A stretch of DNA of 27,849 nt. Source: a virus. The position numbers were made by a program, and so were the translations under genes. Location: IMG/VR virus record IMGVR_UViG_3300002835_000875, positions 1-27,849 of that record. One strand, given 5' to 3'. Position 1 is the first letter of the stretch. The number at the start of each line of letters is the position of its first letter. Shown one piece after another: positions 14,322 through 24,561 of this stretch. The notes under the pieces were generated by a model. It was not told the origin of the DNA. It saw only the letters and a list, made by a program, of their open reading frames with translations, and ran no database searches.

Positions 14322-14936
14322 TTATAATATATAAATATGCTCCATATTTGCTTTACCATTACCATGCACAAAAGTGGGCATAGTGAATTGAGGTGTTAAT
14401 AACCTTTTACCATTAATCTCATAATCTTTGTTTAAAGTAATTCCGCACAAACTCATAAACACATCTTGTTCATAATCTAATTGCAGGTTATTACTCAAAA
14501 CCCAATCGGTCATTATTCGTTGATCATCGTCACTATTGCTAACGTTTGTTTTTTGCATCAAACTTTTAAATAAATCAGCAGTCATGTAATAGCTTCCACT
14601 ATTTGCAAACTTGAATCGGCTTTTAGTATGTGGGTAATGCTCGAATCGTTCAGCATCAGGCCAACAATTTATTTCGGTTGAAATTAAACTATCACTAACA
14701 ATATTTAATTCACTTGGTTTTCCCATTGCATAGGTATCGTAACCATCTAAAAAAATGAATCGTTTAATGTCTGGATTCTGCATTAAGTATTCATAGGTCT
14801 GATTTAGCTTAGTTCCAAACCCTCGCCAACTTGCTTGGATAATTTCGTAATCGTAACCTTGTTTTTGCAAAGAACGCTCTAATTGGTGCGCTCTGCTTCG
14901 GTCATCACAAACCGATATAATTTTTAATGCTTCCAT
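14322..14936 (-). CDS. Glycosyltransferase, procollagen-lysine glucosyltransferase (PLOD)-like
   Basis: The 204-residue protein matches the GT domain found in PLOD enzymes and related viral proteins. It has FIFLDGYDTYA at 60-70 with the metal-binding D64/D67 pair, FKFANSGSYYM at 108-118, DDDQ at 136-139, DYEQDVFMSL near 154-162 and FVHGNGK at 189-195. These correspond to the sugar-nucleotide and Mn-binding elements of that family. It would transfer a hexose from a UDP-sugar; the acceptor is unknown. The start overlaps the upstream GT2 gene by 32 bases and the stop is one base before the small terminase start, so it is locked into the late operon. There is no signal peptide, so it acts in the cytoplasm. 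Confidence 0.85.
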   Translation of the reverse strand: MEALKIISVCDDRSRAHQLERSLQKQGYDYEIIQASWRGFGTKLNQTYEYLMQNPDIKRFIFLDGYDTYAMGKPSELNIVSDSLISTEINCWPDAERFEHYPHTKSRFKFANSGSYYMTADLFKSLMQKTNVSNSDDDQRIMTDWVLSNNLQLDYEQDVFMSLCGITLNKDYEINGKRLLTPQFTMPTFVHGNGKANMEHIYIL

Positions 14937-15678
14937 TTATTAATCCGTTTTTCATTTCGTTAAATTCTTTCATTCTATAACTCGCTTCATCGCGTTTCCA
15001 TTGCGTGTAATTGTTTCCACCTTCGTCTAAATGATCAATTTCGATGTGAGGTAAAAAACAATTCTTGAATCCTGCCAACTTACTTCGCACACTCATGATG
15101 GTATCGTCAAAGCCATACAAGCCTGGCTGCATTAATCCGCCTATTTTGTCAATCAATCTATAATTATGCAGTACACATGTACCCATTACTCCGCTAACGT
15201 CTTCAACTATTATCCAAGGTTGCCCATTTTGATGCGGTAACATACGCAAAGTTGATTTAAATTCGTCATGCCTGCTTGGACTTTCAAGCAAATCCTTTCT
15301 TTTTAATCCTAACAAGCCAATTAATGGATCACGTTCAACTGCTTGTTCTAATTCATCAACCCAACCAACGCTAAGAATATCAACGTCATTGTCAATCTTA
15401 ATTAAATGTTCTTTTGGTTTGCGTAATGCCCATGCTTTATTGATAGCTTTGGCAGTTCCTATGTTTTCATCCAACTCAATTACATCAACATTTCTATTCG
15501 TGCAAGTTAAAAACTCGCTAATAATATGCTTTGTTTCTTGGCATGAATTATTATCAACTATAATCAATCGATTGCAATCCAGATCCACTGTTTGGTAAAT
15601 AGTGTTTAATGTTTTGTGAGTGTATTTGCTCCTGCCATTTTCTTCGGTATCGTGTACCGCCATTGCAATTAACGCCAT
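14905..15678 (-). CDS. Family 2 glycosyltransferase (GT-A)
   Basis: The 257-residue protein has a clear GT2 layout: VDNNS at 41-45, the nucleotide-binding NIGTAKAINKA at 72-82, the metal-binding DND at 96-98 (IKIDNDVDI), and an acceptor-side segment GLYGFDDTIM followed by HLDEGGN near the C-terminus. It would move a sugar from a nucleotide donor to an unknown acceptor. No membrane segment follows the catalytic domain, so it is soluble. It sits in a run of three late-operon glycosyltransferases with a small unknown protein upstream and the PLOD-like enzyme overlapping downstream. Confidence 0.88.
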   Translation of the reverse strand: MALIAMAVHDTEENGRSKYTHKTLNTIYQTVDLDCNRLIIVDNNSCQETKHIISEFLTCTNRNVDVIELDENIGTAKAINKAWALRKPKEHLIKIDNDVDILSVGWVDELEQAVERDPLIGLLGLKRKDLLESPSRHDEFKSTLRMLPHQNGQPWIIVEDVSGVMGTCVLHNYRLIDKIGGLMQPGLYGFDDTIMSVRSKLAGFKNCFLPHIEIDHLDEGGNNYTQWKRDEASYRMKEFNEMKNGLINGSIKNYIGL

Positions 15679-15679
15679 A

Positions 15680-15976
15680 CTATTTACCGACTGGCCTCCC
15701 TACTTTAGGCTTCTTTGGATTTTCAATCAATTGCTTTTCGTAATTAGTCAACCATCTGCCCATGTCACTAATTGCGTTAATATTGCAACCACTACATCCA
15801 CCTGGTCTTATACCTGTGATGTTATGTATTAAAGATTTAATTTCAAGTAACTGTTGAGGCTGCCCAACCCAATCCGATTCGTTTTGGAATATCTTAATCA
15901 ATTCGTAAATGGTGAATCGATGGCCTTCATCGGTTCTGATTTTGTTGTAAATTTCTTCGTATGTCATTAGGTTCAT
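15680..15976 (-). CDS. Small conserved protein, unknown function
   Basis: A 98-residue protein with YELIKIFQNESDW, a glycine/cysteine turn GGCSGCN near residue 60 and a basic C-terminus PKVGRPVGK that looks like an AT-hook-type DNA contact. Two cysteines three residues apart are too few for a zinc site on their own. The gene overlaps the membrane protein gene by ATGA and ends one base before the GT2 gene. An alternative start three codons downstream (MTYEE) is possible. It may be a partner of the neighbouring glycosyltransferases, but nothing in the sequence proves this. Confidence 0.65.
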   Translation of the reverse strand: MNLMTYEEIYNKIRTDEGHRFTIYELIKIFQNESDWVGQPQQLLEIKSLIHNITGIRPGGCSGCNINAISDMGRWLTNYEKQLIENPKKPKVGRPVGK

Positions 15977-16215
15977 ATTTTAAATAATATTCGTTTTGCA
16001 ACTATTGAAATGTAAGCACCTATTCCCGCAACGCCTAACGCGTCAAAAATTGGTTTTATAGTTGGTATGTAACTTGATAAAAGAAACGCAAGCAATACAC
16101 TCCAAAATGTTAAGCACACTATGCAGTTAAATGGCTTGAAGTCCATCCAGTTTGGGAATGGTAATGGGTTGACCGAATAAAATGCCAACCATAAAAATGC
16201 TATGCCTATGCTCAT
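15973..16215 (-). CDS. Small membrane protein
   Basis: The 80-residue protein has an N-terminal hydrophobic stretch (residues 2-14), a second and stronger one around 30-50 preceded by FNCIVCLTFW, and a third candidate near 59-73. The cysteine pair CIVC next to FW at the start of a membrane helix is a pattern seen in small phage membrane proteins. Two or three passes through the inner membrane are likely. It overlaps both neighbours, GT4 and the small unknown gene, by ATGA. It could be a holin by size, but no endolysin is nearby; an anchor or flippase-like helper for the glycosyltransferases is an equally open option. Confidence 0.65.
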   Translation of the reverse strand: MSIGIAFLWLAFYSVNPLPFPNWMDFKPFNCIVCLTFWSVLLAFLLSSYIPTIKPIFDALGVAGIGAYISIVAKRILFKI

Positions 16216-17258
16216 AATATTGATTTATAAAAATTGTAACGTAATTCTGCAACCTTGTCTATGTGGTATTCTTGCACATCTTCGTAAAGTTGCTCGGCTA
16301 ATGTTTCTCGCAAGTCTTTTGAATCGATTAACGCCTTCATGTGTTTGTACCAATCATTTTTGTGCTTTACGCTCAAGCAATTCCAACTATGTTCTATAAG
16401 TCCAATGTATGGATTAACATGCGAAACGATTACCGATTTCTTTTTAAAGCCTGCCTCAAGCATTTTTAAATTTGACTTCATTGAATTAAACCTATTATCA
16501 CGCAATGGAATCAAACTTATATTGATGTTGTCGTAAAATGTGCCATAGTTTAAAACGTCAGTTGCAGGAAACGTCATAAACGAATTAGCATCTGCTGTTC
16601 CTTTTGCGGATAATATACCTGCTATTGCGCAACTCGTCATATCTGTGCCATCGTAACCACCATGCACAACAGTAAATTTAGATTCTGATTGATACAAGTA
16701 TTTGATCGCATCGTGCATTAACAACACATCTTCAAAGTGAGTGATTGAACCACTCCAACCCATGCGTGGTCTTTCAAATTCAACTTGTCTTGCCTCAAAT
16801 TGATTTACTGGATTAATTCCGTTTGGAATAATACCGCATTTTGTTTTACCTATCTCAGCGTTTAAAACTGCTGCCAATCTTTCGTTGGTAGTTGTTACGG
16901 CATAGGCTGATTTTACTGCCTCGACTATTTGCAATGCATGGTTTTTTTGTTTAGATGCACCATGTAAGATGTGCCAAGGTGGCAAAACGTAATCATCATC
17001 TAAATCCAAGATGTATCTTAGCCTAGCTTTTTTTAGTTTTAGAATCAAACTTGAATAATCGCCAGTTTTAGAAAGAAATCTATTAACTACACAAAAATCG
17101 TATTGCATTAAAAAAGAAATCTCGGCCGTGTCTATTTCGTTGATCATGTCAACCTCAACGCCTTCATATTTGCCAATGACTTTATGTGGCTCAACTATTC
17201 GATGAAAGTCAACACCGCTAAATTTTGGATATGAAGGAACGACTATAAGTATTTTCAT
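16212..17258 (-). CDS. Family 4-like glycosyltransferase (GT-B)
   Basis: The 348-residue protein has the two-domain GT-B build. The N-terminal domain starts MKILIVVPSYPKFSGVDFHR and includes YILDLDDDY at 83-90. The domain boundary carries IIPNGIN at 143-149 and MGWSGS at 166-171. The C-terminal donor-binding domain has SMKSNLKMLEAG at 259-270 and a VSHVNPY turn; the usual E-x7-E signature is only partly present (Glu268). It would use an NDP-sugar to modify an unknown acceptor. It overlaps the sigma factor gene upstream by ATGA, so it is the first effector gene after the late regulator. Confidence 0.87.
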   Translation of the reverse strand: MKILIVVPSYPKFSGVDFHRIVEPHKVIGKYEGVEVDMINEIDTAEISFLMQYDFCVVNRFLSKTGDYSSLILKLKKARLRYILDLDDDYVLPPWHILHGASKQKNHALQIVEAVKSAYAVTTTNERLAAVLNAEIGKTKCGIIPNGINPVNQFEARQVEFERPRMGWSGSITHFEDVLLMHDAIKYLYQSESKFTVVHGGYDGTDMTSCAIAGILSAKGTADANSFMTFPATDVLNYGTFYDNINISLIPLRDNRFNSMKSNLKMLEAGFKKKSVIVSHVNPYIGLIEHSWNCLSVKHKNDWYKHMKALIDSKDLRETLAEQLYEDVQEYHIDKVAELRYNFYKSIL

Positions 17259-19953: not shown

Positions 19954-20269
19954 ATAGAAAGTCGATTGTTTTAAGTAGTTCTAAATTTTCTTTTTGTAAT
20001 TTAAATGATTTTTTGCGAGCGGAAAGTTCGTCTAAGTAAACATTACCAATTCTATTAAAAACAAAGTAAAGTGATTTTAAAGTTTTAATTGCGTTTTCTT
20101 TTCTTGCTCCTTCTAGTAAATCAACCGACTCGTCAAACTTTTGAATTATTGATTTAAGGTGTTCAATTGTTCGCAGGTTTTGTTCTTCGGCTCTATCACG
20201 TTCTTCAATTTCTCGCGTTTTAAAATATAGTTGTTCAAGTGTTTCAAGGTATCTTTTTTTATAATCCAT
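19928..20269 (-). CDS. Coiled-coil protein in replication operon, unknown function
   Basis: The 113-residue protein is almost entirely charged helix: RYLETLEQLYFKTREIEERDR at the start (split over two heptads), a central LKSIIQKFDES and a C-terminal LQKENLELLKTIDFLYEQI with leucines in heptad spacing. No enzyme motif is present. It overlaps the SF2 helicase stop by 11 bases and the SF3 helicase start by 26 bases, so it is translated between the two helicases. A loader, adaptor or helicase regulator is a reasonable but unproven guess. Confidence 0.7.
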   Translation of the reverse strand: MDYKKRYLETLEQLYFKTREIEERDRAEEQNLRTIEHLKSIIQKFDESVDLLEGARKENAIKTLKSLYFVFNRIGNVYLDELSARKKSFKLQKENLELLKTIDFLYEQIKLQI

Positions 20270-21842
20270 ATAGTCTTTTTAATTTATCAATGATTTTATC
20301 AGTCAATGCATTGTTAGTTCTGTTCATTCCTTCTAAACTATTACTCAAGCGATAGTATTGTTTTATGTATGATCTAATTCTTGGCTCAAGTGTATCGTTT
20401 GAAATTCGGTTGCAGAACGTTTGAGCATCACCATGAAACTTCCAAAGGTCAACGTATCGGTCGGTAATTATATTCCAATAGTGCGACTTGCCTAATTGGT
20501 TTCGTTGGCAATATTCAAGTATTTTATTTCCGTTAGGCCATTTAATTTCAACACTGGCGGTTGTTAGCCTATCGGTGTTGTCTGTTTCTAAAGTTCTGCC
20601 TGCTTTCGCTTTCGCTTTATTTTTGTGACCACATTCAGCGCATGGTTCTAAAGCAGAGCCAAGCCAATTAAATCCGCAAGAATCGCATTCTATTAATTGC
20701 GGTTTGGTTTGTTTTGGTTTTGATGTTCCGTTGTAAAATATATCTTTCCAATTACGATTATAACTCCAAGGCATAAATCTATCAACGTTTCCTCCAAGAT
20801 CAATTACAATAAAATGATCTTTAAATATTTTGTCACTTGGTCTAGCACCTCTGCCTATAATTTGCAAGTATAACGATAATGATTTAGTTGGTCGGTTAAT
20901 TATTATTGCTTCAACCTCTTTTACATCAAAGCCCGTTGTAAATGTACCTGTTGAAACCAATATAGCACCAGGTGTATTTCTAAACCACTCAACCATTTCT
21001 TTGCGTTCGCTCGCGTTATTGTGTACTGAATCGTATGAACGTATAGGGTAGCCATTAAACGTTTCGCACAAAGATGGATTTTGTTTTGTTGACGCGGTGA
21101 AGATCATTGTCTTTTTGCCTTCGCATTTATCCAAATATTCCGCCAATACGTTTTGATCGTGCTTGATTGATTCGGCTGCAATTTGGTTTTTATCTTCAAT
21201 GTCTTTTACTTCTGAATAATAATTGTATTTAAAAACTAAATCCTTTACCAAGCTACCTTGCTCAATAAGTTCTTCAATCGATGGGCCGATGAATATTTCG
21301 TTATAGAATTCTGATAGCGTTATTGGCCTTGACCATTTAGATGCTTCTTCATTAAAGCAGCATATTGTTTTTTGTGTGTAGATGTTATAGCAATATTGAC
21401 ATTGATAATAACTTTCGCGATCATTTATTATTGGCGTGGCAGTAAATCCAATACGTTTTGCCTCTGGAAAGAAATCAAACGTTTTAACGTGGATTTGTTC
21501 ATGTGCTTCGTCAATGATAAGTATATCAACATTTGGTGGGATAATACGCCTAGCATACAGCGTTTGAGTCATAGCAACCATAACATTGCAACGTGTAAGA
21601 GAATATTTACCTTTTGAGGTTATTGGTTCGCAATCTATTCCAAATGCTTTTAAAGTGTTAGCGGTTTGAATTACTAACTCCTCGCGATGCACTGAGATAA
21701 TAATACGCTTTGTTGGCAACGCTTGAATAATTCCGCCAATGATTACAGTCTTGCCTGCGCCAGTAGCTGCTTGTATTAAGCAACTACTAGTGGCGTTTAC
21801 GGCTTGACTAACTAATTGTTGTTGGTAAGGTCTGAGAATCAT
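20259..21842 (-). CDS. SF2 (DEAH-type) helicase with zinc-ribbon-like cysteines
   Basis: The 527-residue protein has all the main SF2 motifs: RPYQ at 4-7, Walker A AATGAGKT at 25-32, DEAH at 111-114, TATP at 134-137, the second RecA-like domain with STGTFTTGFDV near 297-307, and motif VI QIIGRGARPS at 327-336. Two cysteine groups stand out. One lies in an insert at 148-162 (CQYC and CC). The other, at 386-404 (CDSC and CAEC), is a four-cysteine zinc ribbon. The protein resembles UvrB/RecG-like DEAD helicases of phages such as UvsW-type enzymes, which remodel branched DNA or R-loops. It overlaps the TAGT-like gene by ATGA. Substrate is inferred. Confidence 0.92.
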   Translation of the reverse strand: MILRPYQQQLVSQAVNATSSCLIQAATGAGKTVIIGGIIQALPTKRIIISVHREELVIQTANTLKAFGIDCEPITSKGKYSLTRCNVMVAMTQTLYARRIIPPNVDILIIDEAHEQIHVKTFDFFPEAKRIGFTATPIINDRESYYQCQYCYNIYTQKTICCFNEEASKWSRPITLSEFYNEIFIGPSIEELIEQGSLVKDLVFKYNYYSEVKDIEDKNQIAAESIKHDQNVLAEYLDKCEGKKTMIFTASTKQNPSLCETFNGYPIRSYDSVHNNASERKEMVEWFRNTPGAILVSTGTFTTGFDVKEVEAIIINRPTKSLSLYLQIIGRGARPSDKIFKDHFIVIDLGGNVDRFMPWSYNRNWKDIFYNGTSKPKQTKPQLIECDSCGFNWLGSALEPCAECGHKNKAKAKAGRTLETDNTDRLTTASVEIKWPNGNKILEYCQRNQLGKSHYWNIITDRYVDLWKFHGDAQTFCNRISNDTLEPRIRSYIKQYYRLSNSLEGMNRTNNALTDKIIDKLKRLYGL

Positions 21843-22678
21843 TTTTTATGCCTCTCGTCTAATATCATTGGAGTTGTGTTAACCCATTTGATTAAGTGGT
21901 GAATTCTTATATTGCTAGTATTCATCATTGAAACTTTAACTCCACTCGGATGCATCATTACTGTTGTAAAAGATTTGCAGTATGTTCCATATTTTAAATA
22001 CATATCAGTAATACCGCTTTTTTGACTCTGCGTTTGTGCTTGGTCTAATTGGATAGAAGTAAAAGTAAAAAACAATTCGCCTCTACTACCAAGTGTTGTG
22101 TATGTGTTAACATCTTCGTTCATTGCGCCAACAAATTGAAATCGCTTTTTTGTACTACATACAAAAGAATTCATGCATTTTCTTTTTAATTTAGTTGTAC
22201 TAAACCCTCCAATATGATCTCCACCCTGAGAAAATGCAATTGATTTTATGTTTATATTACTATCTAAAAAACCAACAAAGGTTGAAAACACTTTATTTAT
22301 ATTATTAACCCTTGCTTCATATCCTAATTTATTTTCAAACCTAAATTTAAATTGAGAATAATCATCATCAAGTTCTATAAAATAAGTAATACCTATTTCC
22401 TCTGCTATATCAAAACAAGCATTTCTAGCGTGGGTAATTGTTCTGCGTTCATCAAAATTATTTCCCTCATCAACTTTATCGGCTATTGCTTTTTTATCAA
22501 ATATCTTAACGTTTTCAATTCCGAAATTCTTTTGATATTGCTCAATAGTTTTATCTTCATTATCTACAATAAAATAAACCTTGCCAGTATATCCGCACTT
22601 TTTTAAAGTTGCTAAGGTTTTTATATTATCTGGCCTTCCATGTGTTAAAATAAACACCGCGAAATTATTATTCTCCAT
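21839..22678 (-). CDS. TAGT-like glycosyltransferase (DNA-hypermodification type)
   Basis: The 279-residue protein opens with FAVFILTHGRPDNIKTLATL and YTGKVYFIVDNED (residues 6-42). It has HARNACFDIA at 83-92 and the metal-binding FIELDDDY at 100-107. This pattern is the TET-associated glycosyltransferase (TAGT) family, GT-A enzymes that in phages lie beside TET/JBP oxygenases and add sugars to oxidised pyrimidines in DNA. No TET/JBP oxygenase, thymidylate-synthase-like hydroxymethylase or kinase is visible in this window, so the base it would modify is open. It is coupled to the helical protein upstream (11-base overlap) and the SF2 helicase downstream (ATGA), placing it in the DNA-replication operon rather than with the late glycosyltransferases. 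Confidence 0.78.
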   Translation of the reverse strand: MENNNFAVFILTHGRPDNIKTLATLKKCGYTGKVYFIVDNEDKTIEQYQKNFGIENVKIFDKKAIADKVDEGNNFDERRTITHARNACFDIAEEIGITYFIELDDDYSQFKFRFENKLGYEARVNNINKVFSTFVGFLDSNINIKSIAFSQGGDHIGGFSTTKLKRKCMNSFVCSTKKRFQFVGAMNEDVNTYTTLGSRGELFFTFTSIQLDQAQTQSQKSGITDMYLKYGTYCKSFTTVMMHPSGVKVSMMNTSNIRIHHLIKWVNTTPMILDERHKK

Positions 22679-23066
22679 ATTCTTCTAAGTATTGAGTTTT
22701 AATTTCATCGCATAGCCTAACATAGCCAAGTTGAATTGCTTTTTCAAAGTCAATAATTACCAATGCAGACTTTTCCATTAAGTTTTGCACTTCTTTTGAT
22801 GAATTAGCATAGTAATCTGCTATTCTTTCATAGTTAAAAACTGTATGCCTTTTAGCTGCTTCTATTAAAAATTTTTTGTCTTCGTCACTTACTTTAGAAT
22901 TGTTGATCTCATTAATTAACCTATCTGTTTTAAGTTTATCATATAGCGACATAACATGTGGCTTTTGATTTTTAGGCTCATAAATTGGCGTTTCAATTTT
23001 TTTAGAGTATTTTGAATCTTCTTGGTTTGGTGCATACTCTTGGCCAAACATATTAATTTGTTTCAT
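22668..23066 (-). CDS. Helical protein coupled to the TAGT-like gene
   Basis: The preferred start is the ATG at 23066 (MKQINMFGQEY), giving 132 residues; a frame up to 23123 exists but would overlap the upstream small gene, and the ATGA junction with that gene supports 23066. After a proline/lysine-rich lead (YEPKNQKPHVMSLYDKL) comes a conserved-looking helical domain: DEDKKFLIEAAKRHTVFNYE, then LMEKSALVIIDFEKAIQLGYV. I recall similar C-terminal segments near phage DNA-modification genes, but cannot verify it. No catalytic residues are evident. Its 11-base overlap with the TAGT-like gene suggests a joint function. Confidence 0.75.
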   Translation of the reverse strand: MKQINMFGQEYAPNQEDSKYSKKIETPIYEPKNQKPHVMSLYDKLKTDRLINEINNSKVSDEDKKFLIEAAKRHTVFNYERIADYYANSSKEVQNLMEKSALVIIDFEKAIQLGYVRLCDEIKTQYLEEYGE

Positions 23067-23930: not shown

Positions 23931-24271
23931 AATAGCGTTTCAATTTTTTTAATCCGTTCCACAAATAGCGCATCTTTGTAGTCAAGATAATTCTGAATCT
24001 TGGTTCGAGCGTTCATTATAGTAGTATGGTCACGACCGCCTAATCTTAAACCGATTGATTGTAGGCTTGAATAAGTATGTTTGCAGGCTAAGTAAGCTAT
24101 GCAATGCCTCCACCACATTATCTCACGTTTGCGGTTATTGGATGTTAGTTCCTTTTCTGAGTAACCGCTTACTTTAGTTACTGCCCAAATGATGCCGTCA
24201 AGTGTTATCTTATGTTTGTTAACCCCATGAACTCTAACGTAGAAGTTTGGTTTGCTTATTAGTAGTGTCAT
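23927..24271 (-). CDS. Stand-alone DnaA domain IV DNA-binding protein
   Basis: The 114-residue protein carries the DnaA signature GLRLGGRDHTTIMNA at residues 74-88, in a helix-turn-helix context (residues 24-95) as in the C-terminal domain IV of DnaA. There is no AAA+ ATPase domain, so it binds DNA but cannot load helicase by itself. Phage copies may steer origin recognition or mimic the host initiator. It sits in the early operon between MazG-like and helical genes, with overlaps on both sides. I see no clear match to the DnaA box TTATCCACA by eye. Confidence 0.88.
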   Translation of the reverse strand: MTLLISKPNFYVRVHGVNKHKITLDGIIWAVTKVSGYSEKELTSNNRKREIMWWRHCIAYLACKHTYSSLQSIGLRLGGRDHTTIMNARTKIQNYLDYKDALFVERIKKIETLL

Positions 24272-24561
24272 TTAATTCTTTTGCCTTCAATATAAGTTCT
24301 TGTATTTAGTTGAATTAATTTCTTTGCCATTGCTGCTTCTATATCTTCTAGGTCAAAGCCTGTTAAATGCGCCATTTTAAACATTAAAAAGAAGCAGTCT
24401 GCTAGTTCATCCGCTTGCTCGTTTCTACCATCCAAGACTACCGCCTTTCTAAACTCCCAAACTTCTTCGTTGCGTAACTTGGATAATACGTCTAGCCATC
24501 TTTCATCGCCAAAGGTGTCTTTGCTCCATTGGATGTATTCGTTGATTAGTAATTGGTTCAT
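24268..24561 (-). CDS. MazG-like nucleotide pyrophosphohydrolase
   Basis: The 97-residue protein has the all-alpha NTP pyrophosphohydrolase layout: a helix with LRNEEVWEFRKA (residues 29-40; metal-binding Glu32, Glu33, Glu36), a second acidic motif DELADCFFLMF (51-61; Glu52, Asp55), then KLIQLNTRTY. These residues bind Mg and cleave NTPs or dNTPs to the monophosphate plus pyrophosphate. In phages such enzymes trim nucleotide pools or lower host alarmone signalling. It overlaps both neighbours by ATGA. Substrate cannot be told from sequence. Confidence 0.85.
   Translation of the reverse strand: MNQLLINEYIQWSKDTFGDERWLDVLSKLRNEEVWEFRKAVVLDGRNEQADELADCFFLMFKMAHLTGFDLEDIEAAMAKKLIQLNTRTYIEGKRIK

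Follow-up and report, generated by a model that had tools for sequence, protein, structure and literature searches.

A TAGT glycosyltransferase and a ParB-derived partner form a conserved two-gene viral module that may glycosylate DNA without an oxygenase

The TAGT glycosyltransferase gene and the partner gene described here constitute one conserved two-gene module, in which the partner is derived from a ParB-like protein. We consider it reasonably likely that this pair is an oxygenase-independent ParB–TAGT module for DNA glycosylation. The pair was analysed in a stretch of 27,849 nt (the window), which is the virus record IMGVR_UViG_3300002835_000875 and possibly a fragment (Table 1). An original prediction, made from the letters of the window, had read the glycosyltransferase as a TAGT enzyme that might modify DNA together with a TET/JBP oxygenase or hydroxymethylase encoded elsewhere in the genome. 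The TAGT assignment held and a DNA target gained support from context, but the oxygenase or hydroxymethylase partner did not materialize.

Table 1. Positions in the window of the two-gene module and of the adjoining helicase gene
Feature	Position	Strand	Basis
Partner (132 aa), a YnaK/ParB-like adaptor's C-terminal domain on its own, with no ParB_N	22668..23066	(-)	phrog_620, alignment, position
Partner/TAGT gene overlap, 11 nt, recurrent junction	22668..22678	(-)	ORF coordinates
TAGT-family GT-A glycosyltransferase, 279 aa	21839..22678	(-)	PF20691, phrog_842, alignment invariants, AF2 model, GT-A fold
SF2 (ResIII-type) helicase, downstream of TAGT	20259..21842	(-)	PF04851 2.4e-21, phrog_16 2.7e-72

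Enzymes of the TAGT family are GT-A glycosyltransferases that use a nucleotide sugar and a metal. The motifs on which the original prediction was based (ILTHGRPDN, HARNACF and LDDD) are all present in the 279-residue ORF, and the profile searches proposed with it found clear similarity, both to PF20691 (4.8e-35; 121.8 bits against a cut-off of 27.5 bits) and to the PHROG profile phrog_842 (4.9e-66). In an alignment of 60 sequences of relatives, D105 and D106 (of DDD), R85, D189 (of NED), H260 and H261 were invariant. The AlphaFold2 model (pLDDT 89.2, pTM 0.89) has a GT-A fold; its best VIA match was N-acetylglucosaminyltransferase I (GnT I, 1fo8; Z 15.3) and its top Foldseek match was AvpGT (1.9e-5, TM 0.46). 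The fold is accompanied by an acidic DxD-type motif in the invariant D105-D106. The product is a TAGT glycosyltransferase whose GT-A model is confident and whose catalytic-type residues are intact.

The second protein had been described as helical and of unknown function. The first part of this description stood, since the AlphaFold2 model contains six helices, although it is confident only over about residues 31-100; its best PDB match has an E of 2.4, for a short model of which barely half is confident. The second part can be replaced by a label. The partner ORF begins at an ATG and its product has no Pfam match above cut-off, but it matches positions 148-215 of the 217 in phrog_620, 'ParB-like partition protein', that is, the last third (9e-9). 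It also aligns to the C-terminal ends of ParB_N-containing partners of 243-316 aa from other genomes. Many of the partners from other genomes are about 245-320 aa long with a ParB_N-type domain at the front, and profile searches for that domain (PF02195, ParB/Srx) returned nothing in the window partner or in the rest of the window. Both the similarity to the C-terminal domains of full-length partners and the place upstream of the TAGT gene agree with the YnaK/phrog_620 C-terminal domain, and on sequence grounds we assign the window partner to the C-terminal domain of ParB-like proteins of the E. coli YnaK type.

In a quick TAGT tree with many open forks, the window clade, with its short partner, falls inside a set of fused forms, and the partner changes between fused and short forms at least four times, most parsimoniously seven. 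Stand-alone ParB_N-like proteins of about 155-165 aa are encoded near the terminase in several loci (L003, 13785-14279; L048, 13547-14026; L067, 11685-12149), and L031, L044 and L045 likewise combine such a protein near the terminase with a TAGT partner that lacks ParB_N. In such genomes the stand-alone protein and the short partner are possibly the two halves of a split adaptor. A separate ParB_N protein was seen in several short-form genomes and not in the window.

The TAGT gene had also been described as locked by overlaps to the helicase gene and to the gene for the helical protein, and as lying well away from the other glycosyltransferases. Both statements are accurate: the overlaps are 4 nt and 11 nt, respectively, and the other glycosyltransferases are found at 14322-17258. 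In most relatives the partner and TAGT genes overlap by 2-14 nt. A helicase follows the TAGT gene in Vibrio phage pv27 as it does in the window; it belongs to the replication neighbourhood and is no constant member of the module. The glycosyltransferases at 14322-17258 are three in number and near the terminase, and one has a PLOD-type GT domain (PF25342, 4.7e-18). At 24268-24561 the window encodes a MazG/PRA-PH-like protein that matches dATP-dGTP pyrophosphohydrolase as well (PF04447, 7e-6).

The pairing is close to invariant. Among IMG/VR loci found with the TAGT, the partner is upstream in 79 of 80, and the remaining locus begins at a contig edge. A search seeded with the partner gave an adjacent TAGT in 80 of 80 loci, and loci seeded with YnaK, the E. 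coli type, contained a TAGT in 56 of 58 cases, the other two of which look like deletions. An HMM scan placed 123 of 134 TAGT hits at most 400 nt from a partner. The 11 unpaired hits comprise five in tandem TAGT arrays (L100, L103, L106 and, twice, L128), three in which a methyltransferase gene intervenes (L010, L062 and L091), one ORF-calling artefact (L086), one at the edge of its contig (L037) and, in L130 (8391-8825), a divergent TAGT that is truncated by the contig and lacks an upstream partner, which is the sole genuine exception to the pairing. In the 90 loci left after 90% dereplication, the partner is the sole near-universal neighbour, followed by the large terminase. The constant partner of this TAGT subfamily is a ParB-like adaptor and not a TET enzyme. 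The pair occurs in phages of E. coli, Lactobacillus, Nocardia, Vibrio and Porphyromonas, in the archaeal virus HHTV-2, and in genome contigs of Bacteroidota, Bacillota, Pseudomonadota, Verrucomicrobiota, Spirochaetota, Kiritimatiellota and others, many of which are probably prophages. A position directly before the terminase is frequent among relatives; in the window and in pv27 the module lies in the replication region, away from the terminase.

Some loci contain additional genes. Two or three tandem TAGT copies are present in L128 (5255-8629) and also in L100, L103 and L106; those of L128 are followed by a radical SAM gene, and the arrangement suggests that modification proceeds in steps or is more elaborate. 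A search for a recurrent third enzyme yielded a class I SAM methyltransferase alone, in a minority of loci. This SAM-dependent enzyme is encoded inside or directly upstream of the pair in L010 (9117-10001), L062 (4334-5185), L091 (5883-6719) and L048 (8858-9604), with placement of the same type in L046, L047, L053, L054 and L120, and it possibly caps the sugar or acts on the base. In Vibrio phage 1.124.O (L141, 11232-13334) a distant TAGT is found two genes before a DNA N6-adenine methyltransferase, and no partner was detected there.

In E. coli, where the pair is annotated as ynaK and a hypothetical gene, its DNA has megablast matches in 1,572 of 5,426 complete genomes, with coverage of at least 80% of the pair in 885 of them. 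In K-12 MG1655 (L142, NC_000913.3 1424000-1430500; 1378-1981) what is left of the partner is ynaK, with 87 codons and an overlap with ydaY, and the TAGT gene and the structural genes that follow it are missing. The Rac-type copy puts the module within reach of a standard laboratory host.

The ParB_N domain of full-length partners is also found with other enzymes. In mycobacteriophages Zemanar (L134, 1-3000) and Nigel (L135, 1-3000), a ParB-like gp1 gene overlaps that of gp2, a TET/JBP-type oxygenase (Tet_JBP 4.3e-6 for Nigel gp2), near the left genome end and near the terminase, which in Nigel is two genes further on. Neither phage has a TAGT. The PHROGs label of gp2, 'queuine tRNA-ribosyltransferase', is probably wrong, and gp3 of Zemanar has a match to ADDT (amino acid:DNA transferase; 5e-9). 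Over its first 138 residues, the partner that precedes TAGT in the Nocardia phage NTR1 is 54.5% identical to Nigel gp1 (2e-48). The C-terminal domain of Nigel gp1 was considered as a homologue of that of the TAGT partners and set aside, as similarity was not detected. The ParB_N domain of YnaK, the partner in E. coli, matches the N-terminal part of phrog_498, 'DNA methyltransferase' (8.8e-51), and in contigs found with this type of ParB_N the domain is fused to N6_N4_Mtase beside terminase- or packaging-like genes. ParB-type domains have been described in fusions with DNA methyltransferases as well as next to a DNA cytosine carboxymethyltransferase (PMC12783734). A single type of ParB_N thus appears in the company of DNA-modifying enzymes of three or four kinds; the C-terminal domain goes with TAGT. 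We interpret the ParB domain as a shared adaptor for DNA-modifying enzymes, usually encoded beside the terminase. Because other DNA-modifying enzymes carry this domain or have it as a neighbour, DNA is likely to be the target of the TAGT, and this context is the strongest argument for it. Serratia phage eta, which carries a ParB homologue and may or may not carry TAGT, has normal nucleosides.

In the best-studied cases of phage DNA glycosylation, the sugar is added to a base that already has a hydroxyl or hydroxymethyl handle. The original prediction noted no base-oxidizing enzyme in the window, and our profile searches of this possibly fragmentary record likewise found no Tet_JBP, 2OG-FeII_Oxy_3, thymidylate synthase/hydroxymethylase or ThyX; the dCMP hydroxymethylase (PF00303) that characterizes T-even type genomes is among the families absent. 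The further expectation that an oxidase partner would lie elsewhere in the genome is unsupported, because relatives with the pair lack it too. Tet_JBP (PF12851), which defines TET/JBP-linked systems when present in the same genome, was found in none of 39 pair-bearing records, which include larger relatives and six complete, unrelated isolate genomes (jlb1, c5, HHTV-2, NTR1, pv27 and a Porphyromonas phage). An E. coli record with the pair is also labelled complete, and the IMG/VR records may be fragments. Profile searches for 2OG-FeII_Oxy_3 (PF13640) were equally empty across the 39 records, and PF00303 (thymidylate-synthase family or dCMP hydroxymethylase type) and ThyX (PF02511) were each found once, in Vibrio phage pv27 and in G028, respectively. 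Nigel and Zemanar served as positive controls for Tet_JBP, and the search works because both were detected, even though the Nigel TET protein (gp2) scores under Pfam's own cut-off. The annotation of phage c5, complete at 31.8 kb, lists neither an oxidase nor a thymidylate synthase nor a DNA methyltransferase, and no oxidase recurs in the 90 dereplicated neighbourhoods. Within the sensitivity of the profiles, known handle-making enzymes are essentially absent from the relatives.

We propose a mechanism in which TAGT would transfer a sugar from a nucleotide sugar to viral DNA, with the C-terminal domain of the partner docking the TAGT. In full-length partners the fused ParB_N would bring the complex to DNA, as it apparently does for DNA methyltransferases and the TET/JBP oxygenase. 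As acceptor we envisage a base without modification or some other group that is not hydroxymethyl, and the modification would shield the viral DNA from the nucleases of the host. That a module found in many bacterial phyla and in a virus of archaea comes without any handle-making enzyme that could be detected suggests a different acceptor or a different route, and the pair probably glycosylates viral DNA by such a route. The window lineage has lost ParB_N and carries its module in a replication operon, so that targeting would be by other means, presumably through the TAGT, through a ParB_N protein encoded separately or through the replication machinery; the DNA-tethering step is unsupported in this virus because its partner lacks ParB_N. 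A more specific version, which we put forward only tentatively, is that a TAGT on a ParB-type adaptor glycosylates an unmodified base directly (for example, on an exocyclic amine) with no hydroxymethyl handle, and that this class is common to bacterial and archaeal viruses and, by way of Rac-type prophages, is present in roughly a sixth of the complete genomes of E. coli.

A classical pathway, with TAGT acting on a hydroxymethylated or hydroxylated base made by the host or by a divergent, undetected phage enzyme, is in our judgment unlikely. A handle supplied by the host or a helper, or a divergent oxidase missed by the profiles, is possible, and the dCMP hydroxymethylase beside T6 Ggt, the thymidylate-synthase-family gene of pv27 and the ThyX of G028 are in keeping with such a pathway. 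It is at odds, however, with the empty Tet_JBP and 2OG-FeII_Oxy_3 searches, with the annotation of the complete c5 genome, with neighbourhoods in which no oxidase recurs and with the many phyla in the host range of the pair, among which we know of no host that supplies 5hmC or 5hmU.

We give a little less weight still to an acceptor other than DNA, such as RNA, a nucleotide or a protein (terminase, portal or capsid), in which case the ParB-like part would only tether the enzyme. ParB_N beside the terminase is common and could confer proximity to DNA without DNA modification. The frequent position directly before the terminase fits this reading, as does the nearest Foldseek match, AvpGT, which glucosylates free nucleoside analogues (PMC11959488), but the attachment of the same ParB_N to, or its location next to, enzymes acting on DNA argues against it, as do the modules of the window and pv27 in replication regions. 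The spread of the pair in prophages, including the E. coli genomes with high coverage, could also be taken to mean that it modifies host or competing DNA or serves superinfection exclusion instead of marking its own genome. This we regard as very improbable, given that the module is placed with late packaging or early replication genes and not with lysogenic accessory genes, and that no PADLOC defence family matches the TAGT.

Glycosylation of the viral DNA itself by the ParB–TAGT pair, our preferred reading, bears on earlier work. TAGT without alpha- or beta-glucosyltransferase was reported in 2026 for 288 of 753 phage genomes, for which novel transferases were proposed, and the T6 TAGT, a characterised relative, acts on DNA (PMC13216743). 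The TAGT of the pair resembles these solitary TAGTs in that it is without an alpha-GT or beta-GT; that paper makes no mention of ParB in its main text and describes neither the pairing nor the module nor the adaptor swap. Solitary TAGTs, reported as unexplained, gain a specific partner, and ParB_N may be a general adaptor of viral DNA modification enzymes. The outcome is of more interest than the version first predicted, since the absence of the oxidase looks real. Our literature search found no paper on the ParB–TAGT pair, and the association is new relative to the literature that could be searched; a 2013 TAGT paper outside that search, which reportedly named TAGT, may mention a ParB link earlier. 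Two Vibrio phage papers contain nothing usable on the restriction sensitivity of DNA from pair-bearing phages.

T6 Ggt, the T-even beta-glucosyl-HMC-alpha-glucosyltransferase, shares the PF20691 and phrog_842 families with the window TAGT and illustrates the use of this GT-A enzyme family on phage DNA. It is, however, very distant (PF20691 1e-8 for T6 Ggt, which the subfamily HMM misses), adjoins a dCMP hydroxymethylase, works after an alpha-glucosyltransferase and has no detected ParB-like partner. Ggt adds a second glucose onto an already glucosylated cytosine, and because of this second-glucose step and the great distance its chemistry may not transfer to the window TAGT; a transfer of its active-site logic was rejected, since the alignment is unreliable and the subfamily HMM gives no match to T6. 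The TET/JBP-associated TAGT systems, the source of the Pfam name TAGT, share the TAGT domain and a predicted DNA base modification with the pair, but pair-bearing records are without TET/JBP and the constant partner is the ParB-like adaptor. Also close are the phrog_498 fusions and the ParB–TET genes of Nigel and Zemanar, in which, as in the pair, a homologous ParB_N is beside or fused to a DNA-modifying enzyme near the terminase. The pair differs from them in that its enzyme is a TAGT and its adaptor has a TAGT-linked C-terminal domain that was not detected in Nigel gp1, and of this adaptor the window keeps only that domain.
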